Positions 7,505 through 43,275 of a DNA stretch of 64,000 bases are shown here, in pieces. A model generated the notes under the pieces. The model was not told the DNA's origin. It was given only the letters and a program-made list of their open reading frames with translations, and did not search any database. Numbering within the stretch: the stretch's first letter is position 1; the number at the start of each line of letters is the position of its first letter. This stretch comes from Apostichopus japonicus (Eukaryota > Echinodermata > Holothuroidea > Aspidochirotida > Stichopodidae). The stretch is taken from assembly GCF_037975245.1 (NCBI RefSeq), contig NC_092571.1, forward strand, positions 1,163,501-1,227,500, given 5' to 3'. A program made the translations under genes and the position numbers.

Positions 7505-9255
7505 TCAATGGGGAATGGGTGTGTTACAGTTGCCATGATACACATGAATGGGCTGGGGACAATTAAAATACATATCAAAAACGTCACTATATCCTTTATC
7601 TTTCCACCAAACGCACAATTGTTTATTCCAAGAGCAGGGTAATACATAGAATAATTCCGGCTTCTCCATACTGGCTAACGAAAAGAAGTCCTGATCACCG
7701 AGATGACCCTTGAAATGATACTTCTCGGAGTACTTCTGAATGAAATCAACCCTGAGAATTTCACGGTAGGCCTCACTACCACGCATTTTGTCAAAGTCCA
7801 GCAGCATCACGCCGCTGTTAAATCCTGTCAAGCCGTCCGGTGGTGGATCACCTACTTTTGTGCCTTTATTTTGGGAACGGAACAGAGAAAACAAATGACG
7901 GTAAACTGGTTGTTGCTCGTGGGCAATACCCAACACATTTTCGTCAGAAAAATCTTCAAATAAGTCGAACAGTTGCTTAATGTCAGTCATGAACTTAAGA
8001 TCTGTATCCATCATGATAAGTCGTTTAACATCGTCGGGTAAAATTTCATGGTGGATACCCAGAGACATAAAGAATATGGCATCGCGGTAGTAGGGATGAC
8101 TACCTTGGAGTTGAGCTTGCAAGTCACCAACATGTGGAAGAAGTTGACGGCCCAAGTTTTCAACAAGGAGAATTGTAAACTGTAAGAAAATGGGGAAAAC
8201 AAGATAAATCAGATCAAAGTTTTCAAAGAGCAACATGGTGAAGCAAAACTGTCTCTTCCTAACTCAAAAACTTTAAATCACTACAGATCCAGAGGGGGAG
8301 TGGGTATTAGGGGTATACCATGAAGTACTGAACTGTCACAATAAACATAACAATCAAATGAAAATGAAGCAAGGGTTAATTCCCTCTGATATCAGCTCTG
8401 CAAGTCTGCATGATAAGAAACTGATTTGTTTAAATTTGTAACAACTTTAAGATTCCTTCAGATTTAGCCTTGTTAAATACAGTTAGGCCTAGGCTTATTT
8501 GGTTACATAATCATAAGAGCAAAAATACAAACCTGAAAGTGTGATCTGGCTATACCTTCATCTGTGATTTGTTGCAAACATTCTATTATGAATTCTTCGC
8601 TTGGTTTGTCCACCACAAAAAAGAAATGAAGATTAATCGAGGCCTTTGAGAGAATTGACCTGATGCAGACAACAAATCTTGTCTTCAAGTGAGTTTTTTG
8701 GTGAGTATTTGTAAGAACCTGTAAGACATGGTAATGAGGTGGTTTCTCATTATGACCAGCTGCAAGTAAGTTTGCTACATTCTCAATGTTATTATCAACT
8801 TCTTGATTTGCTCCAGTATTTTGTACATGATTTTCTACTTCTGTATCATGCTTTATTGCATCATTAACACTGCTAGGCCTAACATTAAGTTTCTGGCCAT
8901 ATATATTGTTTGGTTGCTTACTCTGAACGCGCTCTTTAAGTTGATCTTCTTGGAAAAAATCTTTTAAACGATCATTCTTTGGTGCAATCCATCCCGCCTC
9001 TTCAGCAAACCCATAAATAATTCTTTTGTCATAGATATACACACATAGGACGAAAGAGCCAATCACTACCAGAAGCTTTGTGAATGAGCCTAACCATGAA
9101 AGTACATTGCAGTTCCTCTTCGAACTGCGAAAAGACATATTGTCACTCTTCTTTCCTCTACCTTTTGTTGGGTTTGCTAAACCTTTTTGTTTTGCTTTCA
9201 CTCCAGAAGACTGAATATTAACTTTAGATTTCGAAGTTGATGGTCGCTGATGCAT
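7505..9255 (-). CDS. XXYLT1: Xyloside xylosyltransferase 1 (two coding exons, complete)
   Basis: Exons are 9255-8533 and 8179-7505; the donor CAG|GTTTGT and acceptor TTTTCTTACAG|TTT join in phase 0, giving 465 residues (human protein 393; the extra length is in the N-terminal stem). The product is a type II membrane glycosyltransferase of the GT8 type that adds the second xylose to the Xyl-Glc O-glycan on Notch-type EGF repeats, using UDP-xylose in the ER. Visible are a basic cytosolic N-terminus, a membrane anchor at about residues 51-75, a low-complexity stem to about 165, and the catalytic domain. That domain holds the metal-binding MMDTDLKF (DTD at 299-301), QPVYRH, the PPPxGLxGFNSGVMLL block, HLGDQDFF, and the C-terminal YHGNCNTPIP characteristic of XXYLT1. 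The start codon has A at -3 and opens directly onto the basic leader. It is transcribed divergently from ILKAP, 2.8 kb away. Identity is very likely; the 5' UTR and poly(A) site are not defined. Confidence 0.93.
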
Positions 9256-12098
9256 GGTAATACCGTTGATTCCGGTAAAAATACGACTTTCATGAAGTTT
9301 TGGGAAATTTGGTAGCCTAGGACAATGTCAACAAGAGTAGCATTTGCACGAAATAGATTCTGAACATGGCACGCGAATTATGTTACATATAATATAGGCA
9401 TATTGGTCTTCATGAAGTATGCGCCACCGTATGTGATGGTTGGCATAAAAGATGAACCCAAGGAATTTTCATTCTTCATACTAAGTTCATCTTCAACTTA
9501 AAACACAACGTTTATTGGCAAGTAGTTAACTATTGTGAAATGTTCAGATATATATGAATTCGGGGTGTAGTGGGTGTCAAGTGTCGGCTTACATAGACTG
9601 CCCCCAACTTTATACAGACCATTGGAAACACGAACTAACCGACCCCTCTCTCGACAGTCGTTTTTGGTACTCTTGTGTACATGATCACACAATTTCAACG
9701 ATTTACCAATTCCAAAATGTTTTGGCCCATACGCAGAGATGGAGCTAATGAAAAGTTTAAACCATATTAAAGGTGTCCCGGTTGTTAGTGTTTTGGTTGA
9801 GATGAAAGCATGCGATGGATTAATGTTTTCATCTCGACCACAACAATAACATAGAACGGGACACTTTTGTACGTTTGATGTGAAGATTTCATTAGGTCGA
9901 TCTCTGCGAATATGCCAAACTGTTGGCAAAAAAGTTCATCAACATGATTGTGTGATCTTTTACTTCACAATAGTACTGCAAAATGAGATTATTTAGACCG
10001 TCGAGATTGAATGTATAAATAACCGGGTAACTTCCAGACGATGTGTACGTCAGTGTCACTGGTCACCATGCCTGTCATATGGAAATTAGTAGCATGTGAT
10101 CTTCGTAAATGTTTTTCTGTAGCAAGCTGCATAGGCACAGTCCGAATTATCTCAATAATTTCATAATCTGAAAGTCTCAAACCTATAGTTCAAGCCTCGC
10201 AAGTGGCAAGTTTGCTGATATCACATGATTCTAATTCAAATGCCTCTGAAGATGTTGCATCAATTAATCCGGCATTTCCTGGTCGAACGCGAACTAATTG
10301 ACACAAAAAGTACTGAAAGGAAATTAAGGTAGGCTAAACAGCAATCAGAAGAAACGAAAGCACATCATATTGCGAAAAAAATAAATGTCAGCCTGAGATA
10401 ATGAAATACGATAGGCGACATATATCGAAGAGGAAAGAAAGAAGAGGGAAAACAACGACGTGACAATAAAAAAAACTTTTAGAAAATACTGAGCTGTTCC
10501 TAGCATTGAAAAGGAAAATGATGACGAAAAGTATTAACCGGGTACAATTTGCATTTGCACAGTAGCTATTTTGTTTGCTTAATTGCAAGGCAGAGCAGTT
10601 TATGCTAAGTCGTAACCCTATTTATTGGGTACAATGCCTCAGAAAGATTAACCGGTTAATATCTGTTATGTTAAATAAGCTGGATTCCCGGCTTTCTATA
10701 TCGTGTTTTGTGTGTATCGTGTTTTGTTCTCACAGAAAACCAGTGTAACATGTGTCATGCGTCAATGTAATGGTAGTTCCCATAGGCACATTCTACCGTC
10801 TGCTAACTAATCCACAGAAATTATTTTTTGAGCTATATAGCCGACGGGAAACAGGCTGCTTGTAAGTAAGAGGCTGTTCTGAAATTTATGTCCTTGATGT
10901 GTATCTTTGTCGTGTCAACATTTATGTCTTTCACTGGAAAAAAAATGAGCTTCTTTTACAGCAAACGCTGGAAAGGAACGCCTTTAGCTGTTGCAGACCA
11001 TTACTTTCTCATACATATAGTGTGGCTTAGTTTTGCGAGGAATTTAGTTGCCCCAACCCCGAATGCCCTATATCAATTCATACACCAACGACTGTGTTTG
11101 GTTGATTGACAAAGCTCCTAAAGACGGTTTAAGTACTTTCAGTCAGCAGTTATCAGGCTTTGTAATCTGTTTTTCAATCCACCGCACTCAACAAGAAATC
11201 TTCCATGCCATCTCTGAATTACACTTGCACTCCTAGGCGTAATCCTAGTCTACATGATTGTTATGCAAATTTACTTTCATTGAGATTACATACAAATGCT
11301 ATAATACATGGGACCTAGGCTTATACAGTACTTACAGTTACTGCTGCAATGGATATGTAACGTGTTGCGTCTTTGTAACAGTTGTTGTTGTATACATGCT
11401 CAGCAACCAGGGGCAGCCATGTTTTTCAACAGGGTTTGTAGGCGACGGGTGTGTAGCCTAGTGAGAATGTATTGACTTATCATATTGCATTTCAGCATGT
11501 ATACATCAAATCACTTTGAATTTTGACTGGCAATATTAATTGATTGCTTATGTTGTTTATTAACTTTGCTCTTGTATATCAAGTACTAGCCTACTAGATA
11601 CTGCTATATAGTGGAAGCCATCAGTTGAAACAGTAGTTTTAAAAGTTGCATTGGGAACTTTTGAACTATTAATAAGCCATATGTAGTCTATTTTTGATGT
11701 GTAAGTCATTTTCACTCTACATTTATGTTCGTTCATCCTAGTTTTCTTGTACACACAACAAAGCTTCATATTTTTGGCAGTAGCCGTCAAGTTGTTTTAA
11801 TACTTAGCCTATCAGTAGTATCACAATATCCTATTTGGTTGATGAACTTGATTTAGTCTAGACGGAGAAGTATAAAAAGTTTATAAAGTAAGAATCTTTA
11901 TTTGAGAAAATTCCTGGCAGATTTGAGAAGGATCCGACTGGAATTAATATTCTGCTTGATAATGTTGTTGGACTACACATGTTGCATATAGGTGTACACC
12001 TAAACTAAGCTGTACAGTATAATTCTTTTCTATGGTTGACATATTTTTTGATCATTTATTTGTTTTTAACAAATCCTAGAGCCGTCTGTCATCCACAA
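9256..12098. other. Intergenic region between divergent XXYLT1 and ILKAP
   Basis: The 2.8 kb between the two start codons should contain both promoters, but no clear TATA box or CpG-rich block is visible. It holds the fold-back at 9.65-10.0 kb. The 143-codon minus-strand frame at 9498-9929 runs through that fold-back and resembles no family. A splice-acceptor-like ACAAATCCTAG at 12069-12079 just before the ILKAP start hints that the ILKAP 5' UTR is itself spliced. Confidence 0.5.
9651..10004. repeat. Long imperfect inverted repeat (fold-back)
   Basis: Two arms of roughly 160 bases are reverse complements with mismatches and small gaps, centred near 9817-9825. Matching blocks are TTGAGATGAAAG with TTTTCATCTCGAC, GGTGTCCCG with CGGGACACTTT, CGCAGAGATGGAGCTAATGAA with its partner at 9885-9912, and GATCACACAAT (left) with ATTGTGTGATC (right). 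The unpaired loop is about 17 bases. Its nature is unclear; a fold-back transposon remnant, an inverted duplication and a source of hairpin RNA are all possible. Confidence 0.65.
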
Positions 12099-15000
12099 AT
12101 GGATTTGTTCTCAGATTTGCCAGCTCCATGTAAGTATCAAATTATGATTAAGTTTTATGGTTGAGATAACTTTGAAACAGGTTTCGTATCCACAATACCT
12201 TGTCAATTGTCATCAAATAGAGCTTTGATATGGTAGCAAAGAAATAGCACAGCAGCCCTTGTTTGTTTCTTATAACAAAACAGTTCTTGGTCACCTGAGA
12301 TATATCTGTCCAAACATTATGGTCACCATTATCAGTTTCAATTATGGAGCATCCATCAATATGTACAGTAGGTATTGTTCAAATACTTTTAAGAAGTAAT
12401 GAAAACAATCCAACCTGCCTAAATGTTTCCCTTAAACCAACATTGAACCTGATCATGGGCAGCATCCATTCCATTTCCAGGGGATTTGAGATAGTCAATT
12501 GACATGCTGCGTTCTCATGATCATATGGTTACAATCTGGATGTATTACAGTAGGGGACTGGAGTTCTTAGGGGTTCAAGTTGTTTCTCATGCCCGAGCTC
12601 AATCTTGGGTGAATTTTTCTTAAGAATTATATGGCCTAAACTAAAGTTTGTTCTGAGAAAATGCTCCATCAGTTTGTCAAAGCTGAAGCTCTGTGTATTT
12701 GAAAGGCTTAGTTGGTTACTTTGGGAACTTTTACAGGTGTTAGAATTGAGATCTTTCCTTTTCTTTCTCAGCCAAAGAATCTGATGCTGGTAAACCTGCC
12801 GACCAGGAGAATGTTACTGATAACAAAAGGAAAGCTGACGAAGGAATAGTGGAATCGCCATCAAAGAAACAAGCTAAGGAACAAAGTAAGGACATTTTCA
12901 GGCATTTTTTTTCAAACGTACAATGTTATATATATTTCTGTTAGCCTGTTTTGTATCAAATTTTGTTTATGTTGATCGCTGAAGGACATAACTGCCATTC
13001 ATCTTTTATGAAGTAAAGAGGCAGAATATTTTCTTCATCGAAAGGTATCAGGTGATTATCAGATGGAAAGTGGAAATTAGTTGCTAACCTTAAATGTTTA
13101 ATACCTGATCACATTGCTGTCTGAAATGGGGACAGAGAAACAGAAAGGTTATATGTAGATGAATCCAAAGTCTAAAGATCTGTGCAAGTCAGACATACAT
13201 GGCTGTAGTAAATCTCAAATTTCCCAATTAAACATTATTAATAAAAGAGCCCATAGAATCTGCCTTAACATCCGTAGCTACGTCACCACTACTAAGCTCC
13301 TTGAAGCAGCAAACTCTTTACCACTTTTTGACCAACTAATCATCTCAAATGAAAAATCTTTAAAAAACACCCTCCATCTTGACCCCCTAATCCATGACCT
13401 CCTGCTTAAATACTTAGTTCACAAAACCTACGCAAAAAATCGATTTGATTGAGAGTTAGTGCCACAGTTAGTGCCAATTAATGCCAATCGTCAAAGTTGC
13501 TGTTATTTTATCTCTTGTGTTGTGTGTGTGTGTCTTAAGCCCATATAATCTGAAATACAAGTCATAGCAGAGTGGACATTCTGGTATAGAATGAGTCCCC
13601 CTTCAACGAGTGATTGTTCTCTCATGCTATCACTGTGAACACTCCACCCTCCCCCTCTCCCCCTTCTCCCTACACTGGCTTTCGGTTGTAGTTCTACTGT
13701 TACCTTGTATCATTGCTGATAAGTCTGTTTTATTTGAGCCATGCAGTGTTTGTGTTTTCCCGGTAGAATCCAAGTGGAAATGTTTGAAAGGTTTCCTGGC
13801 TGAGAGGCAGGGAGAGCGCGAGGAGATGCAAGATGCCCACGTTATCATCAATGATTTGACAGAGCTGTTTATCAACAGGCCATCCTTTGTGTAGGTTACT
13901 CTTTTATCTGATCTTTGTTTTCAAATCACATTTAAAGTATTGTTCGTCCATTAAAATATAAAATAAAATAAAATGAAATATTGGTTGATTTAATCAGAAA
14001 CTTTCGGCAAAAAATAGGGTTTCTGTCACTTCCAAGTCTGTAAACTATTCCGGATTTAATTTTCGGGAGAAATTCATTATATAACCAGTGCTGTGCTTAC
14101 ATGAATTTCTCGTTAAGCATCTATATTTACTTCTTGGATTGTTTCTCAAATTGTAAATGTACAATAAAAAAAGTCACAACTGCCTATTGGATTGCTGCCA
14201 GATATGAAAAGCAAATTTCCAGCTAACTATTAATTATGTTTCATAATGTTATTAATGATGTTTATTAATTTCATTCTCTACGGTTAAATGTCAGCTGAGA
14301 CTGGGAGGCTTGAATTCATAGCTGAGTACCATCAATGGATTTCCCCTCCCCTCCCCCACCAATGAAAATAGCTTATAGAAAAGAAAACTAGTCCCTTATT
14401 TTACGATATTAACCACTGATTTGAACAAATGAAAAGTTTTACAACCCCTAACTACATCTCTTTATATTACGTTCTTTAACAAATGTGTCGGCAACATGAA
14501 TGCTTTATATGTAACATTTTAGGTTTAATCTGTTTGTCTTTCAAATACAATTTGCTTGTTTATTGATTTATCTGTTGACAGTGAACGGTTAGCTTACTAT
14601 GGAGTGTTGTGTATTTGTTTGTTTAACAGTGTACGGTTAGCTTACTATGCACTGTTGCTATTTTATTTGTTTGTTGATTTATCTGTTGAGAGTGAACGGT
14701 AAGCTTACTATGCAATGTTGTTTGTTTATTGATTTATCTGTTGACAGTGAACGGTTAGCTTACTATGCAGTGTTGTGTATTTGTTTGGTTAACAGTGTAC
14801 GGTTAGCTTGCTATGCACTGTTTGTTTTATTTGTTTGTTGATTTATCTGTTGAAAGTGAACGGTTAGCTTACTATGCACTGTTCTTATTTTATTTGTTTA
14901 TTGATTTATCTGTTGATAGTGAACGGTTAGCTTACTATGCAGTGTTTGACGGTCACAGCGGAGCTCGAGCTGCCAAACACGCCGCCAAATGTCTCCATGA

Positions 15001-18000
15001 AAATATCAAGAAGATGTTTCCCAGCACCAAGAAAGAAACCTGGGAGAAAGATGTGAAAAGGTGTTTCATAGAGGCTTTTAAATCCACTGATGAAGATTTC
15101 TTGAAAGCAGCTAGTGCCCAGTAAGTAATCCTCTGATAGCATCTCAGCCATTTTGGTTATTTATTTGGCTATTCATACTTAGGATAGCTATGCCACATAT
15201 GTAAGGTAGGAGATGCCTATTGTTGTTTCAGGTCAAATTTCATCATAAACACAATAGGGATCTTGCAGACAACTCATACTTTACATCTAGATGTTTCATT
15301 TTAAGTAGAAGAATCCTATTTGTTTTTATAGAGGTGGACAGTCATTTTATTATCCACATTTTTGCTTCTCTGGTTGTCATGCTTGCATATTGTCGTTAAC
15401 TTTAACTGACTAAAGTGATAGTTATTGTTGATGGACATGTTTTAACATCATAGTGTGTGTCAACTTCCTTATTCAGCATCCTTCTATGGATTGGATGCCA
15501 TTCAATTCTGTGTTGTTTCAGTGCTCTTTCTCTGGTGCCATTTAAAGGGGGACAAAATCCCCTTAAGTATTTTTAAAAGTGTTTTTAAATGCAATTCCTG
15601 TTGTTTTTGAATAGCCTTCTTTCTCTTCTCTTCTTTCTCATTACAGTAAGGCAGGATTATATTCAGTATGGAAGCTGCTAAGATTTTTTTTTCTATTCAG
15701 CCTGCTTTGGCAGAGCTACTCTAGGAAAATGGCTGACGTTACTAGGAAACAATTCTTGACTTATGATTATGAAAACTCCCCTCCCAAGCCAACATCTTAA
15801 ACCAAACCAGTCTCTGGAATCCCGACTGACATTACCCAAAGACCCACTAGCCTTGGCCAGGTTCATTAAGAAAGCCAAACCAAACACCCTAATTGCCTTA
15901 ATCAGAAACCTAACAAACTCTTATATATAGAAACTACACCAGGTAACCCAGAATCAACCAATTAAATCATTAAATCTGTAAAATCTCCCACATGGAATGA
16001 AATGTGAAATGTAACCATCTAGTTTTGTTTTGTATCTTTACAACTGTAGGTAATCTTCTTTTCTTCTTCTAACCATTATTGTTTGTATTTAATCATTTTT
16101 GTAAACATGTTATAGATATTTCCCGTTCCACTGAGCAAAACAATATATTTTTGGGAGGGTGAAGGATGGGTGTACCAGGCCAGTGTAGTCGTGTAGGTCT
16201 CATGGGAAACTGACTGTTCTTTTTCTGTTCTGAACTGTAAGCTGTAGCCTTTAGTTTAGAAGTAATTTAAGTGCATAATAACTGGTAAAAATACTTGTGA
16301 AAGTGAAGGATAGATTGGGCTGGAGTGAGGGCGTGGAGGGGGTGGAGGATGACCCAGGGTGAATGTCAGCCATAAACACAATGGAAATTATGCTTCACCA
16401 TCCTCTGTAGGGGTATGGGATATTTTCAGTTTCTCTCTACTTTCCTACGTACATACATGTTCTTACAGAATATTTCTTTGAAAATGTTTTCTTCGCCAGG
16501 AAGCCAGCATGGAAGGATGGTTCCACAGCTGTGTGTGTAATGGCTGTCAATGATACGCTGTATATTGCCAATGTTGGAGACAGCAGGGTGAGTAGCCAGC
16601 GAATATTAATCGACCAATTAGTGTGCTACAGGGGAACAGGTGGATGGTAAAGGGGTAACAACTTTGAGGGGTACAGGGGTGGATCTTTAAAATGGAAGGG
16701 GGTCATTTGAGCCAACTTCAATGTAAGGAACTGAGTGGGGGGGGGGGTCCTCCCCCAGAGAGACAGTTAAAAGTTTACAAGTGAAATGTTGCATTCTGAG
16801 GGATACCATAAACTACTTTGACTTTTGTTTATGTGGGTTTGATAACCTGAGGTATGTGTTTGTCTGGAATTTCTGTCTTTGGCCTGTAGTTACATTTGAT
16901 AGGTCCTCTAGAATGCCCCTTTAAAGCTTAAGAGTTGATGACATCTGCTCCTCAGTACAGGACTAAAGGGTAATGTTAATCCATTGCCTTAAAAATGTTA
17001 ACAACTCAACCCAAACATGTTCTTCTGAATTTTCTTGGATTCGGCTCATATTTGTAATGTAAATATTAAACATGTCATTTTAGATTTGTGTTGCATTTGA
17101 GAGAGCTGACCTAATGTTATGTGTACTAAAGTACAAAGTCCAGTCACTTATTAATTGAAAGAGTCATTTATCAAAGATTTGTTCTCATTGATAGCAACCT
17201 AGACTCATCGGTGTCTGTTTTAATGGTCTACAAAAGATCAAAATAAATTGTGTGCCTATAGTCATGGTCGCATGTCGTAAGGTGGGCACCTTTTCAATAA
17301 CGGTGTTAAAAATGGCAAAAAACATATTTCTTGATATTTTGTATATATTGATAGCCTCTAATAGTTAACACCATTTTTAGCCATAAAACATGTTTATTTT
17401 TCGAGATAATCCTTAATTACTAATTAATTAATACACAGTTGTCCATGTAAATCTCAATTTTCAAACACGTTTTTCTCAAATCGGACCTTTTTCACAAAAA
17501 GTCCTACCAAATTTTTATTTCATGCAAGAAATTTACCAGATTTGGAGGATTTGTTCTGAACATGATAATACTTCGTGGTATAATTCAAAATATTTTACAT
17601 TAAGAAGTTCATATGCTAATTACATCAGCAAGGTCAACGACATTTTTATGTGTAATTAATGAACAGTTTATTCTATCATTAAGGAAATTAAAGTCAAGAA
17701 GAGAAATATATACACAAGCAAGTTCTTAAGGTACTGCAATTAATGTTACAGTCAATAAAAAATGAAAAAATGGAACAAATAACTCATTAAAGTATTCAAA
17801 TTGGCTTATTAATAGGATTAATTAAGGTAACGAAAATCAATTCCATTGATGCGCACAATACAACGGCTGAAGTAACAAAATTTTGACTCCAACCCAAATG
17901 CATGACTTACAGTATTTTAAAACAAATTAGGAGGTTTCTATACTTGAAGTTATGAAATGAAAGAATAGACAAACAAATAACTCAATTAATATTTAAATTG

Positions 18001-21000: not shown

Positions 21001-22370
21001 ATTACTAGCGTAGGGTAAATATGATTAATATTCATCAAAAAGTGGGATAAAACAATACAAACCAATTCATGAATCAGATAAACAGGCTTTGGTAGAGCTC
21101 TCCCGTTATTTCTTTTCCTGTTTTTGTTCAGGGATGGACGACTGATGGGTATCTTAGAAGTGTCTCGTTCCCTAGGCGACGGCCGCTTTAAACATTGTGG
21201 TGTCGTCTGCCTGCCGGACGTCAAGAAGTGTCAGCTGACCGACCATGACCGTTATATTTTGCTCTCCTGCGACGGATTATGGACAAACTTTGAGCCTTCT
21301 ACAGCCTTGGAGTTTGTCCAGAAGATAATTAATGTGAGTAGCCTTACTCTCTGCTGTTTTTGACATTATAGTTCAAAGAGTCTCCATGCTATGTTGTATA
21401 TATAAATAAATAAACAGCAGAGAAAGGTGGAACACTATATTAAACAATCGTAGAAGAGCAAATATATTATTGGCTTGAAGGGGATTTTGATGAGTGGTCT
21501 TAAAAGGAGTTTCTGGTGGATTAAGCCAAGTGTCACAATCAGGAATGACCTTTGCCAGGAATATTTTAACATGAGATACTCATGTCAGAAGTCCATATTT
21601 CCAGCGTAACGTAGTCCTATACCGGTAAATTACGGTCCTATGACTTATTAAATTGAACCACTTTTGACAATTAGTATTCACAGACAAAGAACAAGTCAGA
21701 AATATTCAACATACTTTACTTTTTCTTTCTTCACTATTTGAAATCAAAATGGACAGGTTGGCATAAAGATCAAGATTGCTACATATGGAGATTGTTTTAA
21801 TTATGCTCAAGTGTCAAAAATTTGCCAAAAAGCTGCAATAAAGCAATTTCTTGAGTCCAGCTTTTGTAAATTTACAAGAATCCATATTTTAGTGTTTCAT
21901 AGTTCGGCTACTCAAGTTTCATTGGCATAAAGTAATAGGAAATGACTCGTTCATCAGCCCTTACTTTGCCCTTAAAACACTAGGAGGGGAGTCATAGTTA
22001 ATTGTAACCTTAGGTTTGAGTTACTGTACATAAAATGCAAAAAGCAATTCTAACATATTTAATACTTGTGTGATATATTGTATGATGATTAGATTTCAAG
22101 GTTAGCTAAAAGTGGTTTTAGATATTTATATTTGATTATAGCATATTATCATGAGATATCTGGACAGTCTTTGATATCTCAATCACTTCTTCCTTCACTT
22201 GTGATGATGTCACTGCCTCTTGATTATTCCTCTTCTTTACCAAACAGGACGGAGAGACTCCCTCAGATGAAAAATTTGAGGTAGCTTGCAACAAACTTGC
22301 GTCAGAGGCGGTCAGAAGGGGGAGTTCAGATAATGTGACAGTCATACTGGTGAGGATATCACAAAGGTGA
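12099..22370 (+). CDS. ILKAP: ILKAP, PP2C-type Ser/Thr phosphatase (eight exons, complete)
   Basis: Exons are 12099-12129, 12772-12885, 13767-13890, 14920-15120, 16500-16587, 19422-19543, 21132-21333 and 22248-22370. All introns are GT/AG and frames join exactly over 1,005 nt (334 residues; human 392). The product is a metal-dependent phosphatase that in vertebrates binds and restrains integrin-linked kinase. The start MDLFSDLPAP matches the family N-terminus; a Lys/Glu-rich linker follows. PP2C motifs in order are GEREEMQDAHV (64-74), FDGHSG (99-104), KDGSTA (162-167), YIANVGDSR (178-186), SKEHNPIQYEERMRIQKSGG (exon 6), EVSRSLGDG (236-244), LLSCDGLW (270-277) and GSSDNVTVILV (from 319). The metal ligands expected from PP2C structures, D100, D274 and D322, are present, so an active enzyme is predicted. 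Oddities: the exon-4 acceptor and the coding 3' end have both been tandemly duplicated (separate entries). The intron between exons 2 and 3 carries a LINE fragment. Confidence 0.93.
13159..13452 (+). mobile_element. Non-LTR retrotransposon fragment, C-terminal coding end
   Basis: A 97-codon frame inside ILKAP intron 2 contains an INKRAHRICLNI-like block followed by SLPLFDQLIISNEKSL. This layout (I-x-KRA-x-RI, a short gap, then LxxLPLxxxR/I followed by a Lys-rich helix) is seen just before the stop codon in the ORF2 of CR1/Jockey-type LINEs. A stop codon lies immediately upstream, so only a truncated relic is present. The match is by pattern memory and should be treated as probable, not certain. 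Confidence 0.45.
14566..14945 (+). repeat. Tandem duplication of the ILKAP exon-4 splice acceptor, seven copies
   Basis: The block TGATTTATCTGTTGA(c/t)AG|TGAACGGTTAGCTTACTATGC, that is, intron end plus exon start, is repeated with post-AG positions at 14582, 14630, 14693, 14748, 14796, 14857 and 14920. Spacings are 48, 63, 55, 48, 61 and 63; copies 1-3 and 4-6 form a higher-order unit of about 166 bases. Only the last copy continues into TTTGACGG, encoding the FDG metal-binding motif, and it is the functional exon 4. All copies keep an AG, so they are potential competing acceptors. Confidence 0.9.
15700..15930 (+). mobile_element. Possible degenerate coding relic in ILKAP intron 4
   Basis: A plus-strand frame between roughly 15784 and 15930 reads as a compact, charged peptide with NQSLESRLTLPKDPLALA and a following ARFIKKAKPNTLIALI segment, then a stop. 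Its composition is more protein-like than the surrounding AT-rich intron, and it ends at a stop followed by C/A-rich DNA, as retrotransposon ends often do. No family is recognised; it may be a retroelement relic or chance. Confidence 0.2.
17775..18330. repeat. Three tandem ~200-bp repeats in ILKAP intron 5
   Basis: A unit beginning AACTC(a/t)TTAA.. and containing TTCAAATTGGCT, AATAGGATTAATTAAG, a TTCC(a/t)TTG(a/t)TGCG block, GGCTGAA.TTAC.AAAATTT and a final (a/t)CACGACTTA-type end starts at about 17781, 17978 and 18189. The copies are strongly diverged, with point changes and small indels, so the duplication is old. No coding potential is seen. Confidence 0.6.
19690..20240. repeat. 46-bp minisatellite in ILKAP intron 6
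   Basis: About eleven copies of a 46-base unit built from AAGATACCGGTCCCCAGATA, GCAAATAGATACCGTAGGGC and AAAGAG lie in tandem. Because 46 is not a multiple of 3 and the unit has no stop codons on the minus strand, several long overlapping minus-strand frames (up to 193 codons) result; these are by-products and not genes. A single TACCGG/CCGGTA core recurs in most units. Confidence 0.9.
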
Positions 22371-27056: not shown

Positions 27057-27864
27057 TTAGGAAACCCAACAGACTGCTACAAAACTCCTTGCCAAAAAAA
27101 CAAATTTTGTACACGAGTGCATTTAAAACAAATAGATCACATGGTGAGGTGTTTTTAGGGGGTAAATTTGGTAAATTTAGGGGGTTTTAAACTTGAAATT
27201 GCAATTTTAGTACTAACCAAACATGTGCATTTCTAAAATTCAAACAGTTTGGGATCTGAACATATACATATATTGATATATGTACCTACTTCCATGTGAT
27301 CTATTATGATTTACATACACTTGTGTACAAAACATGTCTTTCGGAGTTAAGTTGAGATGTTATCATGCTATCCCTGGTGTACAATGCTGTCAGACTGACT
27401 CTGTGCTCACAGAACAGTAACCAATAGTTTCACTTGAAGATCGGGGCAGTTTTAGATAATATGGCTTGGATACCACTAAGAGGGTCACCTCACATAAATA
27501 ATAAGTTTGACAAGGTGAAAAAATAGTTCACCATAGTTCATGGCAAATTTGAACTTTTGAATAGAATGTTTTCTTGACACCTGACTGTCTGTAAACTAAG
27601 GTGCCCAATAATTTACAAATTGTTTTGGTATAAGGCTAATATTTCAGAAAACAACTAATTAGCCAAGTTTTGGTTTTTTTCCCCTTTCCCTCTCAAGCAG
27701 AAAACTAAATGTTGATATTAATACAGCTCATATGAGATGAACTATGTTTTTGATTGTACAGCAGAATACACCAGTAACACCAGGATGACATCACAACATG
27801 TAGCATCATTCAAATAATAAACACTTCTAGAAATGGTGTCTCTCATATTGACTGTACAGTTTAA

Positions 27865-28215
27865 AGGGTGTGAAGACTCACGCAAAAAGAAACGTCTAAT
27901 GCTAGTAATCTGACCTAGTTTCAAATGAGGTGTAACAGAGGTGTTAAACACCAACATCGATCCAAGAAAATACACACACAGCTTGCTACCATCGGTAATT
28001 AGAAACTATTGTACAGTCAGTACATACAGCTGCGGTCAATACCCACAGCACAGTGTATAAACGATACAGCGATGGCCATCTCAGGTCCAGCTAAAGATAA
28101 CAAGGTATCACACATTTCATTTCTGTGTGCATTTTGTAGCGACACAAACAAAACGTCACTTGCAAGCAACGGAAAGTTAATTTTTTCAGATTTTTGGTGC
28201 AAGTCTTCAATGCCT
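27865..28215 (+). mobile_element. TTAA-flanked MITE, copy 1
   Basis: The element starts AGGGTGTGAAGACTC and ends GAGTCTTC-like (AAGTCTTCAATGCCT), the two ends being inverted repeats of about 20 bases. It is flanked on the left by TTAA (27861-27864) and on the right by TCAA, a one-base variant. Internally it matches the copies at 52.7 and 54.6 kb, including ACACACAGCTTGCTACC and GATAACAAGGTATCAC. TTAA target duplications are typical of piggyBac-type transposition. It sits inside a unit of the large array. Confidence 0.75.
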
Positions 28216-29029
28216 TCAACTCAAACATTTCATTTTATTTGAATGAATCTCCCCTCTTCAGGGAAGTTAGATTTTTATTATTATGACCAATTTTTTGGTT
28301 ACTGGCTAAATGCCAGTGGTCTTTGCCATTTGCCAATAGATAGAAAATGCCTGGTATTTTTTCTGCCAGTGCAAATTATTTTTGCTCTTGCTTTGATCAA
28401 GGAAAATATTTTATTTTAGCCAGTAGCTTTTTCAGTCACTGGTATTTTTTAGCGAGTAGCTTAAATATAGAAGTTGTAGGTCTGTAACTGCATTTTAATC
28501 ATTAAAAGAGACACCATTCCTATTAACAAAAAAATAGTCTTGAGGAATTTCATTTTTTACTTACAAAAGAAGGAACATACTTTAAAACATCCTTGTGAAA
28601 TTTCCATTAATTCCATAATCACAATTTTTTTAATTTAAGGGTAATTATTGGACTAATGTTGAAGTTGAAGCAAACAGGTGTATTGTCATAGATCACAATG
28701 TGCAAAAGAAACAGTTTGTCATCTCAAGGATTAATATCCACTTTACAAACTAGGATATACTTTGGCACCCTCCCCACCCCAGGTATTTACCCAAAAGAGG
28801 GTAAAAACCATAGTGAACTAAAGTATTTCAACATACAGTAGAAATGGAATGCTGTGTTTAGCAGAATGCTTCAAAATGTGTTCCTCTTTTACCAATAAAA
28901 AAATTAATTACCTCAGAGCTATTCTTCTAAGTCTACAGTTCCATTATAAACATGGACAAAACAGTGACTGACCTCTGACATTGCTCATAGCCGACAATCA
29001 CATCAATAAATGACACTCGAATGTACCAA

Positions 29030-32000
29030 AACTTTGCTTCTTTCAAACAATGCAGTTAATTCGTTTCCCCAAAATTTGATAAATTTCGTCAAAAATTGAA
29101 CAAATTACTCTGAAACAACTGACTGCTCAGAATTTGTTTACAAACTATAGCTATGAGCTTTTGAGATTTGTAAGTATTCTTCAAAACATAATATCTTGAA
29201 GGTTTGAAAGCCTTTGTAGATAGGTAGGCCTGTCAGTTTATAGTCCATGTTGATAATGGAGGATACAACATAACTTAAAGTTATCTGTAATGCCCACAAA
29301 TATGTCAAAAAGATCATAACTGATCTTCTAAGACCTTCTAAGATATCATATTCTTCTGCCTCAGAGCAGATTTTGTTCGTAATTACGTCATTTGATCGCC
29401 AGATTTCAAACTTGTCAATGTCTGGATTTAATCTGGATTGTTAGACTGCACAAAGTGCAATTTTGGAAACCTTTTAGATTAAGAACTTTGTTGTTGACCA
29501 GTTTATCATGGACAATACAGATGAACCTTAACACAGTTTTAACAAACATTTGCTTCTTGAAACATCTTCACACATCCTCGTCTGATATTAACATCTCTGT
29601 GATTCAGGGAAGTAGCTCTTCTCCTACTGATGTCTTGAGTGAACACATAATAATCCTGCAGGTCTGGTCTGTTAGGTGAAAAGAAAAGATGAATTTATGT
29701 CACAATTTGATGATAACATGCTTAAAAGGGATTCTCTTCACATGTAATATTTCACAGTAATATTCATAGATCAGATCATTGAGGTCTTCATACTATTCTG
29801 ACCTTTGAGCAACTTTTTAGCATTGCAGATATTTCAGAAATCAACTAATCAGCCTAAGATCTTTGGGGCCTTTTTCCTCCTTTCCCTCTCAAGTAGATAA
29901 CTTCATTTGAGTTGATATGAATACAGCATATGAGATGAACTTTCATTGTACAGCACAATACACCATTAACACCATAATGACATCACAACAAGTAACATCA
30001 TACTAATAATAAACACTTCTAGAAGTGGTGTCTCTCATATTGACTGTACAGCTAAACAAAACTCTAGCAGAGACATACGACACCTCCTTTTATTTGAATG
30101 AATCTCCCCTCTTCAAGAAAGTTAGATTTTTATTATTATGACCAACTTTTTTTGTTTCTGGCTAAATGCCAATGGTCTTTGCCATTTGCCAATAGATAGT
30201 AAATGCCTGGTATTTTTCTGCCAGTGCAAATTAATTTTTGCTCTTGCTTTGATTTAAGGAAAATATTTTATTTTAGCCAGTGGATTTTTCATTCACTGGT
30301 ATTTTTTAGCGAGTAGCTAAAAATATTGAAGTTGTAGGTCTGTAACTGCATTTTAATCATTAAAAGAGACACCATTCCTATTAAAAAAATATAGTCTTGA
30401 GAAATTTAATTTTTTTACTTACAAAAGAAGAACATAATCTAAAACATCCTTGTGAAATTTCCATTAATTCCATAATCACAATATTTTTATTCTGAGGGTA
30501 ATTATTGGACTAATTTTGAAGTTGAAGCAAATAGGTGTAATGTCACAGATCAACATGTGCAAAAGAAACATTTTGTCATTTAAAGGATTAATATCCAATT
30601 TACAAAATAGGGTGTACTTTGGCACCCTCCACCCCTCCCCACCCCAGGTATTTACCCAAAAGAGGGTAAAACCATAGTGTGAAGTAATTCAACATACAGT
30701 TGAAATGGAATGCTGTGTTTAGCAGGATGCTTCAAAATGTGTTCCTCTTTTACCAGTAAAAAAAATTAATTACCTCAGAGCTATTCTTCTAAGCCTACAG
30801 TTCCATTATAAACATGGACAAAACAGTGACAGACCTCTGACATTGCTCATAGCCGACAATCATATCAATAAATGACACTCGAATGTACCAAACTTTGCTT
30901 CTTTCAAACAATGCAGTTATTTCGTTTCCCCAAAATTTGATAAATTTTGTCAAAAATTGAACAAATTACTCTGAAACAACTGACTGCTCAGAATTTGTTT
31001 ACAAACTATAGCTATGAGCTTTTGAGATTTGTAAGTATTCTTCAAAACATAATATCTTGAAGGTTTGAAAGCCTTTGTAGATAGGTAGGCCTGTCAGTTT
31101 ATAGTCCATGTTGATAATGGAGGATACAACATAACTTAAAGTTATCTGTAATGCCCACAAATATGTCAAAAAGATCATAACTGATCTTCTAAGATCTTCT
31201 AAGATATCATATTCTTCTGCCTCAGAGCAGATTTTGTTCGTAATTACGTCATTTGATCGCCAGATTTCAAACTTGTCAATGTCTAGATTTAATCTGGATT
31301 GTTAGACTGCACAAAGTGCAATTTTGGAAACCTTTTAGATTAAGAACTTTGTTGTTGACCAGTTTATCATGGACAATACAGATGAACCTTAACACAGTTT
31401 TAACAAACATTTGCTTCTTGAAACATCTTCACACATCCTCGTCTGATATTAACATCTCTGTGATTCAGGGAAGTAGCTCTTCTCCTACTGATGTCTTGAG
31501 TGAACACATAATAATCCTGCAGGTCTGGTCTGTTAGGTGAAAAGAAAAGATGAATTTATGTCACAATTTGATGATAACATGCTTAAAAGGGATTCTCTTC
31601 ACATGTAATATTTCACAGTAATATTCATAGATCAGATCATTGAGGTCTTCATACTATTCTGACCTTTGAGCAACTTTTTAGCATTGCAGATATTTCAGAA
31701 ATCAACTAATCAGCCTAAGATCTTTGGGGCCTTTTTCCTCCTTTCCCTCTCAAGTAGATAACTTCATTTGAGTTGATATGAATACAGCATATGAGATGAA
31801 CTTTCATTGTACAGCACAATACACCATTAACACCATAATGACATCACAACAAGTAACATCATACTAATAATAAACACTTCTAGAAGTGGTGTCTCTCATA
31901 TTGACTGTACAGCTAAACAAAACTCTAGCAGAGACATACGACACCTCCTTTTATTTGAATGAATCTCCCCTCTTCAAGAAAGTTAGATTTTTATTATTAT

Positions 32001-33320
32001 GACCAACTTTTTTTGTTTCTGGCTAAATGCCAATGGTCTTTGCCATTTGCCAATAGATAGTAAATGCCTGGTATTTTTCTGCCAGTGCAAATTAATTTTT
32101 GCTCTTGCTTTGATTTAAGGAAAATATTTTATTTTAGCCAGTGGATTTTTCATTCACTGGTATTTTTTAGCGAGTAGCTAAAAATATTGAAGTTGTAGGT
32201 CTGTAACTGCATTTTAATCATTAAAAGAGACACCATTCCTATTAAAAAAATATAGTCTTGAGAAATTTAATTTTTTTACTTACAAAAGAAGAACATAATC
32301 TAAAACATCCTTGTGAAATTTCCATTAATTCCATAATCACAATATTTTTATTCTGAGGGTAATTATTGGACTAATTTTGAAGTTGAAGCAAATAGGTGTA
32401 ATGTCACAGATCAACATGTGCAAAAGAAACATTTTGTCATTTAAAGGATTAATATCCAATTTACATAATAGGGTGTACTTTGGCACCCTCCACCCCTCCC
32501 CACCCCAGGTATTTACCCAAAAGAGGGTAAAACCATAGTGTGAAGTAATTCAACATACAGTTGAAATGGAATGCTGTGTTTAGCAGGATGCTTCAAAATG
32601 TGTTCCTCTTTTACCAGTAAAAAAAATTAATTACCTCAGAGCTATTCTTCTAAGCCTACAGTTCCATTATAAACATGGACAAAACAGTGACAGACCTCTG
32701 ACATTGCTCATAGCCGACAATCATATCAATAAATGACACTCGAATGTACCAAACTTTGCTTCTTTCAAACAATGCAGTTATTTCGTTTCCCCAAAATTTG
32801 ATAAATTTTGTCAAAAATTGAACAAATTACTCTGAAACAACTGACTGCTCAGAATTTGTTTACAAACTATAGCTATGAGCTTTTGAGATTTGTAAGTATT
32901 CTTCAAAACATAATATCTTGAAGGTTTGAAAGCCTTTGTAGATAGGTAGGCCTGTCAGTTTATAGTCCATGTTGATAATGGAGGATACAACATAACTTAA
33001 AGTTATCTGTAATGCCCAGAAATATGTCAAAAAGATCATAACTGATCTTCTAAGATCTTCTAAGATATCATATTCTTCTGCCTCAGAGCAGATTTTGTTC
33101 GTAATTACGTCATTTGATCGCCAGATTTCAAACTTGTCAATGTCTAGATTTAATCTGGATTGTTAGACTGCACAAAGTGCAATTTTGGAAACCTTTTAGA
33201 TTAAGAACTTTGTTGTTGACCAGTTTATCATGGGCAATACAGATGAATCTTAACACAGTATTAACAAACATTCGCTTCTTGAAACATCTTCAGAACATCC
33301 TCTTCTGGTATTAACATTCT
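29030..33320. repeat. Near-identical 1,861-bp tandem copies
   Basis: Within the larger array this part repeats with a constant period of 1,861 bases and only scattered single-base changes. Identical 95-codon frames start at 29392 and 31253, and a shortened version starts at 33114. The next unit to the right is clearly more diverged, as is the left part of the first unit, so these copies come from a recent unequal exchange or recent duplication. An assembly artefact is the alternative. Confidence 0.9.
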
Positions 33321-36300
33321 CTGTGATTCAGGGAAGTAGCTCTTCTCCTACTGATGTCTTGAGTGAACACAAGTCTGGTCGGATAGGGTGAAAAGAAAAG
33401 ATGAACTTATGTCACAAGTTGGTGAAACATTCTTTAAATGGATTGTCTTCACATGTAATTTATCACAGTAATATTCATAGAATTTATTAGTCATGAACAT
33501 ATGGAAAGTTGTTTTAACATCAAAAAGCCTCTTACATTATGTAGTATGCTGAAAGCATTTCCACTGATACAGAGACATCTTATTGTCCAGTAATTTTACC
33601 CAGCTCAATGTCTGGGAATAATTTTTGTCAGTCAGATCATTTAGGTCTCAATTCTTTTGTGACCTTTGAACAACTTTTAGCATATTTAATTTCAGAATAC
33701 AACTAAAAAGCCTAAGTTTGTTTTTCCCCTTTCCCTCTCAAGTAGATAACCTCATTTGAGTTGATATTAATACAGCTCATATGAGATGAACTATGTTTTT
33801 GATTGTACAGCAGAATACACCAGTAACACCATAATGACATCACAACATGTAACATCATTCAAATAATAAACACTTCTAGAAATGGTGTCTCTCATATTGA
33901 CTGTACAGCTGGACAAAACTCTGGCACAAACATTTCATTTTATTTGAATGAATCTCCCCTCTTCAAGAAAGTTAGATTTTTATTATTATAACCAACTTTT
34001 CTTTTTACTGGCTAAATGCCCGAGGTCTTTGCCATTTGCCAATAGATAAAAAATGCCTGGTATTTATTTGGCCAGTGCAAATTATTTTTGCTCTTGCTTT
34101 GATTCAAGGAAAATATTTTATTTTAGCCAGTGGATTTTTCCTTCACTGGTATTTTTTAGCGAGTAGATTAAATATTGTAAAACTTGTAGGTCTGAAACTG
34201 CATTTTAATCATTAAAAGAGACACCATTCCTATTAAAAATAGTCTTGAGGAATTTCATTTTTTTACATACAAAAGAAGAACATAATCTAAAACATCCTTG
34301 TGAAATTTTCCAATTAATTTTCTTTTTAAGGGTAATTATTGGACTAATGTTGAACTTGAAGCAAATAGGTGTAATGTCATAGATCACCATGTGCAAAGAA
34401 AACATTTTGTCATTTAAAGGACTAATATCCAATTTACATTATAGGATATACTTTGACACCCTGCACCCCCTCCCAAGCCCCAGGTATTTACCCAAACGAG
34501 AGTAAAAACCATAGTGTGAACTACAGTAATTCAACATACAGTAGAAATGGAATGCTGTGTTTAGCAGGATGCTTCAAAATGTGTTCCTCTTTTACCAGTA
34601 AAAATAATAAATGACCTCAGAGCTATTCTCCTAAGCCTACAGTTCCATTATAAACATGGACAAAACAGTGACTGACCTCTGACATTGCTCATAGCCGACA
34701 ATCACTTCAATAAATGACACTCGGAAGTATCAAAACTTTGCTTCTTTCAAACAATGCAGTTAATTCGTTTCCCCAAAAATTTGATAAATTTCACCAAAAA
34801 ATTGAGCAAATTACCCTGACACAACTGACTGCTCAGAATTTGTTTACAAACTATAGCTATGAGCTTTTGAGATTTGAGAGTATTCTTCAAAATACAACAT
34901 CTTGAAGTTTTGAAAGCCTTTATAGATAGGTAGGCCTGTCAGTTTATAGTCCATGTTGATAAAGGAGCAAGCACAATAATTTAAAGTTATCTGTAATGCC
35001 CACAAATATATCAAAAAGATCATAACTGATCTTCTAAGACTAAGATCACATATCATATTCTTCTGCCTCAGAGCAGATTTTGTCTTTAATTACGTCATTT
35101 GATCGCCAGATCAAACTTGTCAATGTCTAGATATAATCTGGATGATTAGACTGCACAAAGTGCAATTCTGGAAACCTTTTAGATTTAAAAACTTTGTGGT
35201 TGACCAGTTTATCATGGGCAATACAGATGAACCTTAACACAGTATTAACAAACATATGCTTCTTGAAACATCTTCGGAACATCCTCTTCAGATATTAACA
35301 TCTCTGGGATTTATGGAAGTAGCTCTTCTCCTACTGATGTCTTGAGTGAACACATAATTATCCTGCAGGTCTTGTCTGATGAGGTGAAAAGAAAAGATGA
35401 ATTTATGTCACAATTTGATGATAACATGCTTAAAAGGGATTCTCTTCACATGTTATGTTTCACAGTAATTTTCATATTTCAGATCATTGAGGCATTCATA
35501 CTTTTCTGACCTTTGAGCAACTTTTCCTCGTCTCCTCAAAAGTTTATTATAAGTTTATAACCAACTTTTTGCCCTTCTCGTTGAGCAGAAATACTGCAGG
35601 TATTGAAATTAAGGTAATTTAGTGCTAGTGGATTTTGTCACTTGCCAGTAGATAAAAAGACCAGGTATTTTTTGGCCAGTGCAAATTTATGTTGCTTTTG
35701 TTTTAATTCAAGAAAACTGCAATTGGTAATTTGATTTCAGCCAGTGGATTTTTTTTATTCACTGGCATTTTTTAGCAAGTGGCTTAAATAGTACAATTCT
35801 AGGTCTGAAACTGCATCTTAATCAGTAAAAGGGACATCTTGCCTATTTTAAAAAAAAAAGATCTTATTATTTTTTTTTACCTACAAGAGAAGACCATACC
35901 CTAAAACATCATTGTGAAATTACCATTCATTCCATAATCATGATAGTTTTGTTTGAAGGATAATAATTGGACCAATGTTGAACTTGAACCCACCTCCCCA
36001 CCCCGAGGTATTTACCCAAAAGAGGGTAAAAACCATAGTGTGAACTAAAGTTATTCAAAATACAGTAGAAATGGAATGCTGTGTTTAGCAGGATGCTTCA
36101 AAATGTGTTCCTCTTTTACTAGTAAAAAAAAAAATTACCTAAGAGCTATTCTTCTAGTTCTACAGTTCCATTATAAACATGGACAAAACAGTGACCGACC
36201 TCTGACATTGCTCATAGCCGATAATCACATCAATAAATGACACTTGTAAGTACCAAAATTTGCTTCTTTCAAACAATGCAGTTAATTTGTTCCCCCAAAA

Positions 36301-39300
36301 ATTGACAAATTTCACCAAAAAATTAGCAAATTACCCTGACACAACTGACTGCTCAGAATTTGTTTACAAACTATTGCTATGAGCTTTTGAGATTTGAAAG
36401 TGTTCTTCGAAACAAGACATCTTGAAGTTTTGAAAACCATTTGTAGATAGGAAGGCCTGTCAGTTTATAGTCCATGTTGATAAAGGAGGATACAACATAA
36501 TTTAAAGTTATCTGTAATGCCCAGAAATATGTCAAAAAGATCATAACTGATCTTCTAAGATCATACATATCATATTCTTCTGCCTCAGAGCAGATTTTAT
36601 CCGTAATTACGTCATTTGATTGCCAGATTTCAAATTTGTCAATGTCTAGATTTAATCTGGATTGTTAGACTGCCCTCTCAAGTAGATATCCTCATTTGAG
36701 TTGATATTAATACAGCATATGAGAAGAACTTTGTGTTTGATTGTACAGCAGAATACACCAGTAATACCATGATGACATCACAACATGTAGCATCATTCAA
36801 ATCATAAACACTTCTAGAAATGGTGTCACTCATATTGACTGTACAGCTGTACAAAACCCTGGCAGAGACATATGACACTTCCTTTTATTTGAATGCATCT
36901 CCCCCTCTCTTCAAAAGTTTATTATGACCAACTTTTTGCCCTCCGTGTTGAGCAGAAATAAACTGCAGGTATTGAAATTAAGGTAATTTAGTGCTAGTGG
37001 ATTTTGTCACTTGCCAGTAGATAAAAAGACCAGGTAGTTTTTTGGCCAGTGCAAATTATTTTGCTTTTGTTTTAATTCAAGAAAACTGCAATTGGTAATT
37101 TGATTTCATCCAGTGGATTTTTGTATTCACTGGCCTTTTTTAGCAATTGGCTTAAATAGTAAAATGTTAGGTCTGAAACTGCATCTTAATCCTTAAAAGG
37201 GATATCTTGCCTATTTTAAAAAAAATGATCTTTTGAATTTACCTACAAAAGAAGACCATGCCCTAAAACATCATTGTAAAATTTCCATTCATTCCATAAT
37301 CATGATATTTTTGTTTGAAGGATAATAATTGGACCAATGTTGAACTTGAACCCCCCTCCCCACCCTTAGGTATTTACCACAAAGAGGGTAAAATCCATAG
37401 TGTGAACTTAAGTTATTCAAAATACAGTAGAAATGGAATGCTGTGTTTAGCAGGATGCTTCAAAATGTGTTCCTCTTTTATCAGTAAAAAAATAAATGAC
37501 CTCAGAGCTATTCTTCTAGGTCTACAGTTCCATTATTAACATGGACAAAACAGTGACTGACCTCTGACATTGCTCATAGCCGACAATCATATCAATAAAT
37601 GCAACTTGTTAGTACCAAAACTTTGCTTCTTTCAAACAATGCAGTTACTTTGTTCCCCAAAAAATTTGATAAATTTCACAAAAAGTTGAACAAATAACTC
37701 TGACACAACTGACTGCTCAGAATTTGTTACAAAATATTGCTATGAGGTTTTGAGATTTGAAAGTGTTCTTTAAAACATAACATATTCGAGTTTTGAAAGC
37801 CTTTGTAGATAGGTAGGCCTGTCAGTTTATAGTCCATGTTGATAAAGGAGGATAAAACATAACTTAAAGTTATCTGTTATGCCCACAATTATGTCAAACA
37901 GATCATAACTGATCTTCTAAGATCTTCTAAGATATCATATTCTTCTGCCTCAGAGCAGATTTTGCCCGTAATTACGTCATTTGATCACCAGATTTCAAAC
38001 TTGTCAATGTCTAGATTTAAGCTGGATGGTTAGACTGCACAAAGTGCAATTGTGGAAATCTTTTATATTTAAGAACTTTGTGGTTGACCAGTTTATCATG
38101 GGCAATACAGATGAACCTTAACACAGTATTAACAAACATTTGCTTCTTGAAACATCTTCACACATCCTCGTCTTGTATTAACATCTCTGAGATTCAGGGA
38201 AGTAGCTCTTCTCCTACTGATGTCTTGAGTGAACACAGGTCTGGCCTGATAAGGTGAAAAGAAAAAGAGAATTATGTCACAACTTGGTGATAACATGACA
38301 TTTTACTAGATGTCCATTAAATAGACATAATCTTAAATAGACATAAGGGGGTTTCAAGATGTAACCATAAAATAGAAGTTGTTTTAACATCAAAAAGCCT
38401 CTTACATTATGTAGTATGCTGAAAGCATTACCACTGACACAGAGACATCTTATTGTCTAGTAACTTTACTCAGCTCAATTTCTGGGAATTAATTGGTGGT
38501 CAGATCATTTAGGTCTCAATTCTTTTGTGACCTTTGAGCAACTTTTAACATATTTAATTGCAGAATACAACTAATTAACCGCCTTTCCTTATTCCTTCTT
38601 TATTTGAGTTGATATTAATACAGCTCATATGAGAAGAACTATGATTTTGATTGTACAGCAGAATACACCAGTAACACCAAAATGACATCACAATATCACA
38701 TTAATAAACAAATTCAGGTCAAATAATACTTTGTAAACACGATGACTCTAAAACGTACATCTTTGTTGAACTTCATACCTGGTATGCAGATTCAGCTTGG
38801 TGAGTATAAGAACCCTATTGATATTGGTAAAGGTTAACATTTAAGTAAAAACCTGATAACCTTGTAAAACATTACAACTCCTAAATCTAATGCTACAACT
38901 CATCTGTGATTTTCCAATGCTATGATTTTCTGGTAAACAGTTTGGTCTAATTCAGTTCAGTTCAGTTTTGTTCAGTGGTTCTATTGATCTTTAACAAAAT
39001 ATAGTCATCCAGGAAGTGATATCTGCTTCAAATAGTTGAGTTTTAATTCAACAAACTCACAAGGCCTATAACCAGCTTTCACCCTCTGAGCTTCAAGGGG
39101 TCAACAGGTTATCTAAAATGGTGCAAAAATTGGCCCTAAAAGGTTAACCAAAATGTTGCAAATGTTTCTCTGTAATTTATACTAGATGAGTTTTGCTTTG
39201 GCCCTAGGTTTGAAAAATATTTTACATTGAATAAACAATGTCATGTTACTCTCATTCATTAATAACAACTATAAAAGGAAAGCTCAAAATTGGGAAAAGA

Positions 39301-42300: not shown

Positions 42301-43275
42301 TCAGATTTGTTGACAACTATAGCTATGAACTTTTGAGATTTGTAAGTTTTCTTCAAAACACAACATCTTGAAGTTTTGAAATCCTTTGTAGATAGGTAGG
42401 CCTGTCAGTTTATAGTCCATGTTGATAAAGGAGCAGCAACATAACTTAAAGTTATCTGTAATGCCCAGAAATATGTCAAAAAGATCATAACTGATCTTCT
42501 AAATTCACAAATATAATATTCTTCTGCCTCAGAGCAGATTTTGCCCGTAATTACGTCATTTGAGCCCCAGATTTCAAACTTGTCAATGTCTAGATATAAT
42601 CTGGATGGTTAGACTTCACAAAGTGCAAATGTGGAAACTTTTTAGTTTTAAAACCTTTGGTGGGTAATACATATGAACCTTAACACAGTATTAACATACA
42701 TGCCCTTCTTGAAACATCTTCACACATCCTCGTCTGGTATTAACATCTCTGGGATTCAGGGACGTAGCTCTTCTCCTAATGTCGTCTTGAGTGAACACAT
42801 AATAATCCTGCAGGTCTGGTCTGATAGGGTGAAAAGAAAAGATGAATTTATGTCACAACTTGACGATAACATGCTTCAAAGGGATTCTCTTCACAGGTAA
42901 TGTTTCACAGTAATATTCATAGAATTAAATGAAACCAAAGTATCTCACAAGAAATTAATCACAAAAGTTAAGTATCAACATGAACAGATTGGTTCAACAA
43001 AATTAAATAGACAATTTTTTAGGTGCCCATTAAATAGACATAATCTTGAATAGAGATAGTGGGTTTTCCAGATGTAACCCTAAAATGGAAAGTTAATTTA
43101 ACATCAAGAAGCCTCTTACATTATGTAGTATGCTGAAAGCATTTCCACTGATACAGAGATTATCATAAATGCCTAGTAACTTTACCCAGCTCATTTTCTG
43201 GGAATATTTTTGGCTGGTCATATCATTTAGGTCTCATTTCCTTTGTGACATTTGAGCAACTGTTAGCATGCTAAA

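Follow-up and report, generated by a model that had tools for sequence, protein, structure and literature searches.

A tandem array of seven splice acceptor and exon-start copies in a PP2C gene fits the structural definition of a mirage

Tandem repeats of intron/exon boundaries have been named "mirages" in amphioxus genes, where 5' or 3' boundaries are affected, many units carry splice signals and the units measure 10-160 bp (PMC3087553, as excerpted). In BflGb6 (B12.2 intron/exon 2) the 3' end of the intron and the 5' part of exon 2 are repeated in 6 or 3 units according to haplotype, and RT-PCR suggests regular splicing; BflGb9 and Adh3 are further mirage cases in the same source (PMC3087553). 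According to the excerpt of PMC3902484, the Adh and TnC arrays are said to yield no aberrant mRNAs. As for the choice among competing sites, the excerpted sources report that the first AG after the branch point is strongly preferred (PMC7317903), that the proximal AG is preferred in NAGNAG pairs (PMC3250501), and that the order of the two sites is not decisive in designed human tandem acceptors (PMC6783452). Excess base-pairing can invert the usual CAG > UAG order, as described for human "laggard" CAG sites (PMC11802449), and PMC7404189 gives general background only.

The window analysed here, i.e., the whole 64-kb stretch of DNA, has a GC content of 36.5%. It carries a PP2C gene, presumably ILKAP-like, the profile match itself showing a PP2C domain only. 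The product built with the copy 7 acceptor described below matched PF00481 (PP2C) with an E value of 4.9e-58 over profile positions 6-255 of 255, the exons having been joined by hand with two joints approximate, and it would thus contain a complete PP2C domain. The reading frame continues across the end of exon 3 at 13890 and the exon start at 14920 as ..RPSFVERLAYYAVFDGHSG.., the joined sequence being SFVERLAYYAVFDGHSG. The two exons concerned are:

Exon 3 of the PP2C (ILKAP-like) gene, 13767..13890, + strand: donor GT at 13891 (TGT/GTAGGT), translation continuous with exon 4, acceptor 13766/13767 placed from the frame.
Exon 4, 14920..15120, + strand: 201 nt, donor CCA/GTAAGT at 15121.

Direct reading of the region between them revealed seven copies of the acceptor plus exon start at about 14552-14944:

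Copy 1, type A, 14552..14606, + strand: acceptor CAG, exon-like start 14582, out of frame.
Copy 2, type B, 14607..14654, + strand: acceptor CAG, start 14630, out of frame; predicted AG-containing hairpin of -14.2 kcal/mol.
Copy 3, type C, 14655..14717, + strand: acceptor GAG, start 14693, out of frame; GTAAG donor-like string at 14699.
Copy 4, type A, 14718..14772, + strand: acceptor CAG, start 14748, out of frame.
Copy 5, type B, 14773..14820, + strand: acceptor CAG, start 14796, out of frame; predicted hairpin of -13.3 kcal/mol; CTTGC replaces CTTAC.
Copy 6, type C, 14821..14881, + strand: acceptor AAG, start 14857, in frame and open to copy 7, giving a 21-residue insert.
Copy 7, type A, 14882..14944, + strand: acceptor TAG, continuing into the PP2C frame; includes the exon 4 start at 14920 and the first 25 bases of that exon.

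An exact search for AGTG[A/T]ACGGT on the + strand of the whole window gave seven matches, all within the array, and TRF scored the array at 327 (14548-14946). Thirty dinucleotide shuffles of 14400-15000 produced no TRF row at the minimum score of 50 used in this control, for which the real sequence served as the positive one. The preliminary description had placed seven tandem copies at 14566-14945; the number holds, and the array begins earlier, near 14552 (14548 by TRF). Its statement that the last copy only runs into the FDGH codons is borne out as well, as copy 7 alone reads on into TTTGACGGTCAC (F-D-G-H). The exon starts are separated by steps of 48, 63, 55, 48, 61 and 63 nt. By alignment the units fall into three types, A (copies 1, 4 and 7), B (copies 2 and 5) and C (copies 3 and 6), arranged in the order ABC-ABC-A. 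The blocks 14552-14717 and 14718-14881 match in 156 of 166 alignment columns, the remainder being 8 substitutions and 2 gap columns, a pattern suggestive of a block duplication; this duplication, in the one haplotype read, lends indirect support to length instability.

All seven copies keep the AG, which the search pattern itself demanded and which the alignment of the units shows as well. Copies 4 and 7 share 25 identical exon-like bases. The sites are not near-identical as had been stated at first, because the -3 bases differ (C, C, G, C, C, A and T in copies 1-7), the type B copies have an intron part about 15 nt shorter, with TGTACGG, and copy 5 has CTTGC for CTTAC. Four of the decoy acceptors are CAG, and the site keeping the protein frame is TAG. 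In copy 3, the string ACG/GTAAGC (14699) is donor-like and lies six bases past the acceptor of that copy; a 6-nt in-frame micro-exon or a recursive splice point would be formally possible there.

Since the repeat unit spans an intron/exon boundary and many units, here 7/7, keep the AG, the array fits the structural definition of a mirage, a kind already described and not new. Like the amphioxus mirages it is a tandem repeat across an intron/exon boundary, at the 3' boundary as in BflGb6 (PMC3087553, as excerpted), whereas it lies in a PP2C gene, with steps of 48-63 nt and in ABC-ABC-A order. The 60- and 108-bp repeats of lancelet PGBD5, a different gene, are likewise imperfect tandem repeats overlapping splice sites; their copy number differs between two assembly versions, and according to the excerpt the predicted exon 5 within them has no EST or mRNA support (PMC3902484). 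Internal tandem repeats of human segmentally duplicated genes are also minisatellites, some of them at exon-intron boundaries, and such boundary repeats can form novel introns (PMC2812944, as excerpted). Designed tandem or duplicated 3' splice sites in human cells also set near-copies in competition, but the designed pairs come from native sites 2-59 nt apart and show no first-acceptor preference in the excerpted text (PMC6783452), whereas the PP2C gene offers seven natural copies over 338 nt.

A second array lies at the end of the same gene:

Second coding-edge array of the PP2C gene, 22335..~22698, + strand: founder unit made up of the final 36 coding bases, stop included (VTVILVRISQR*), with further copies running into the presumed 3' UTR.

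Its units of about 42 nt start inside these last 36 coding bases (22335-22370) and run to about 22698, so that in both arrays a coding edge appears to have been copied outward into sequence taken as non-coding. Strong local repeats were found at 2 of 14 edges of the gene (13 splice edges, several placed by inference, plus the stop, with exon 1 left out), with scores of 53 and 46 against shuffle maxima of 21 and 14. Sampled positions in 1300-26700 reached the cut-off of 30, which was set after the edge scores had been seen, in 39 of 508 cases, or 27 of 491 without the two arrays. An excess of repeats at exon edges was rejected (P 0.29 or 0.18) given the local repeat density.

Repeats also occupy other parts of the window. 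Among the repeat families listed (20 of 34), the region 27700-43000 contains tandem units, about eight in number and spaced at roughly 1.4-2.8 kb; three of these are at least 99% alike over 300 nt, with a 1861-nt step. TRF found a 6.4-kb satellite at 45222-51581 with the 25-nt unit CCATTACCTAGGCTAACACTGGCAT, which had 0 exact matches in viral and prokaryote contigs, a collection from which animal genomes are absent by design. Two open stretches on the - strand at 59616-62079 match alkaline phosphatase (PF00245), and a 26-nt minisatellite lies between them at 61122-61527. A Glycosyltransferase family 8 gene (PF01501), presumably XXYLT1-like, is found at 7505-9327 on the - strand. The open stretch at 13159-13449 resembles by eye the end of a LINE-type reverse transcriptase and had no Pfam match at E 0.001. 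No Rfam match at the gathering score and no tRNA were found in the window.

Counted to 14920, the exon starts of copies 1-7 have offsets of 338, 290, 227, 172, 124, 63 and 0 nt. None of copies 1-5 is in frame (remainders 2, 2, 2, 1 and 1), and each meets a stop; the frame is kept by copies 6 and 7 only. It had been noted before that copies 3 and 5 are out of frame, which is right for those two and understates the matter. The offsets and the translation agree with the further statement that copy 6 lies 63 nt upstream, in frame and with no stop, and would insert 21 residues. Exons starting at copies 7 to 1 would hypothetically measure 201, 264, 325, 373, 428, 491 and 539 nt.

The most satisfactory account, which we regard as likely, is that the array is a mirage-kind minisatellite grown from the intron 3/exon 4 boundary, that copy 7 is mainly used, that transcripts spliced to copies 1-5 decay, and that copy 6 is at most a minor site. 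To the array and its block structure, both directly observed, we add by inference the mutational steps, branch sites, exon definition, acceptor use and decay. The array would have grown via repeated tandem duplication or unequal exchange, including one duplication of a three-unit block to give ABC-ABC-A. Its place on the intron side would follow from the protein needing no copy other than the one continuous with the remainder of exon 4. The spliceosome would mainly pick copy 7. Exon definition, most likely the basis of the correct choice, would couple this copy to the donor of exon 4 at a distance of 201 nt. The branch site of copy 7 may be just upstream, at CTTAT (14884) or CTTAC (14868). Stray splicing to copies 1-5 would cause a frameshift and probably removal by nonsense-mediated decay, and copy 6 would yield a minor in-frame isoform at most. 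This account is consistent with the seven copies and their higher-order pattern (156/166 columns between blocks), with the frame being kept by copies 6 and 7 only, with the fit of the copy 7 product to PP2C (E 4.9e-58), with candidate branch sites at 32 and 48 nt upstream of the AG of copy 7 and no other AG in the interval, and with the precedents of BflGb6, where RT-PCR suggests regular splicing, and of the Adh and TnC arrays, as far as the excerpted sources go.

The splice signals themselves do not all favour copy 7. With a general acceptor matrix, copies 1-7 scored 2.58, 3.15, -3.42, 2.58, 1.21, -0.83 and 1.44. Copies 1, 2 and 4 thus outscore copy 7, as do five further acceptors of the gene whose positions were correctly set (2.80-6.79, exon 2 left out), so other copies surpass the frame-keeping site within the array, and by the standard of the gene it is not strong either. 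Candidate branch sites by the yTnAy motif occur upstream of every copy, CTTAT lying 32 nt and CTTAC 48 nt before the AG of copy 7. In addition, TTAAT at 14525 lies upstream of the array, 53 nt ahead of the copy 1 AG; if a branch site upstream of the array is used, the first-AG and proximal-AG preferences would favour the upstream copies, which argues against the use of copy 7. The -3 position is the sole four-state column among copies 1, 3, 4, 6 and 7 over -27..+25 (P 0.029, post hoc). Selection weakening the decoys at this base was not accepted, as CAG is kept in 4 of 6 decoys.

Another reading makes copy 6 a regulated alternative acceptor, so that a PP2C isoform would gain 21 residues immediately ahead of the DGH-bearing strand, where an alignment with PPM1A places the insert point. 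We consider this improbable. The copy is in frame and open, but shuffles of the 63-nt insert were open in 25.6% of 5000 cases and the frame requirement multiplies this by about one third, so an in-frame copy 6 requires no special explanation; an in-frame design of the copy was therefore rejected, and as an in-frame open decoy it is unremarkable. Its -5..-1 bases are predicted to be unpaired with a probability of 0.98 in a 36-nt window, but the acceptor is only 0.03 unpaired in the predicted fold of the whole intron plus exon 4. An apparent AAG acceptor at exon 6 of the gene, a boundary placed by inference, gives the AAG of copy 6 a companion, but the copy 6 score of -0.83 is the second lowest of the seven. 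The CTTAC candidate upstream, within copy 5, reads CTTGC, and copy 6 is left with TTTAT at 27 nt, TTGAT at 15 nt and TTTAT at 11 nt. The insert would moreover be hydrophobic and inside the catalytic domain.

It is similarly doubtful that the decoys are used often, so that frameshift and decay lower the functional mRNA and copy number acts as a tuner of expression. This reading is favoured by the four CAG acceptors, none of them in frame and each followed by a stop, and by the higher scores of three of them over copy 7, and a related idea has been proposed in Drosophila, where decay would shelter weakly spliced new introns (PMC2809761, as excerpted). Against it, the amphioxus arrays are said in the excerpted literature to splice regularly, and exons of 325-539 nt starting at copies 1-5 would be less suited to exon definition.

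RNA structure offers one further way in which decoys might be passed over. In 40-nt window folds, the predicted energies were -14.2 and -13.3 kcal/mol for copies 2 and 5 and between -3.6 and -8.6 for the other five. Copy 2 differs from copy 4 within -6..+25 by three bases only, at -5, +3 and +23; placed singly into copy 4, these changed the predicted energy from -6.6 to -7.0, -10.1 and -10.2 kcal/mol, and all three together gave -14.1. Random triple changes of copy 4 with the AG kept were equally stable in 70 of 20,000 trials (a fraction of 0.0035, post hoc, as the stem had been seen first), and 4 of 1350 sampled 36-mers of 1-27000 reached -13 kcal/mol. The type B decoys may on this modelling be silenced by burial of their CAG in a stem, as self-hiding acceptors that have evolved, and such hiding would allow a TAG to win over base-paired CAGs, in line with the proposal for human "laggard" CAG sites. 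We think this unlikely as well, because no such stem forms in copies 1 and 4, which are CAG as well, because copy 7 is largely base-paired in the predicted folds, and because the test came after the stem had been noticed. In folds with flanks of at least 80 nt all seven acceptors were mostly paired (mean unpaired 0.03-0.35), the -5..-1 bases of copy 7 were predicted to be 0.06 unpaired in the 36-nt window, and the fold of 14545-14950 had a z of -1.55, a stability equalled or exceeded by 5 of 100 shuffles. That copy 7 is chosen for its RNA accessibility is unsupported, since it does not stand out in the mean unpaired probabilities, and this also counts against its use. That the array is an assembly artefact of fewer copies is very improbable, for although tandem arrays are error-prone and the array of BflGb6 haplotype 1 seemed to be wrongly put together in the draft genome (PMC3087553, as excerpted), all seven units differ in sequence, which false expansion does not readily yield.

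With a mirage-kind array mainly spliced at copy 7 as the favoured account, the PP2C gene is a natural counterpart of duplicated-3'-splice-site experiments, with seven graded copies per transcript. Between copies the -3 base varies, as do the candidate branch site, the distance and the predicted hairpin, and the set could be used to weigh scanning, site strength, exon definition and structure. To our knowledge, the cases called mirages in the work cited here have cephalochordate hosts. If the present host is not a cephalochordate, mirages would seem to be no peculiarity of amphioxus.
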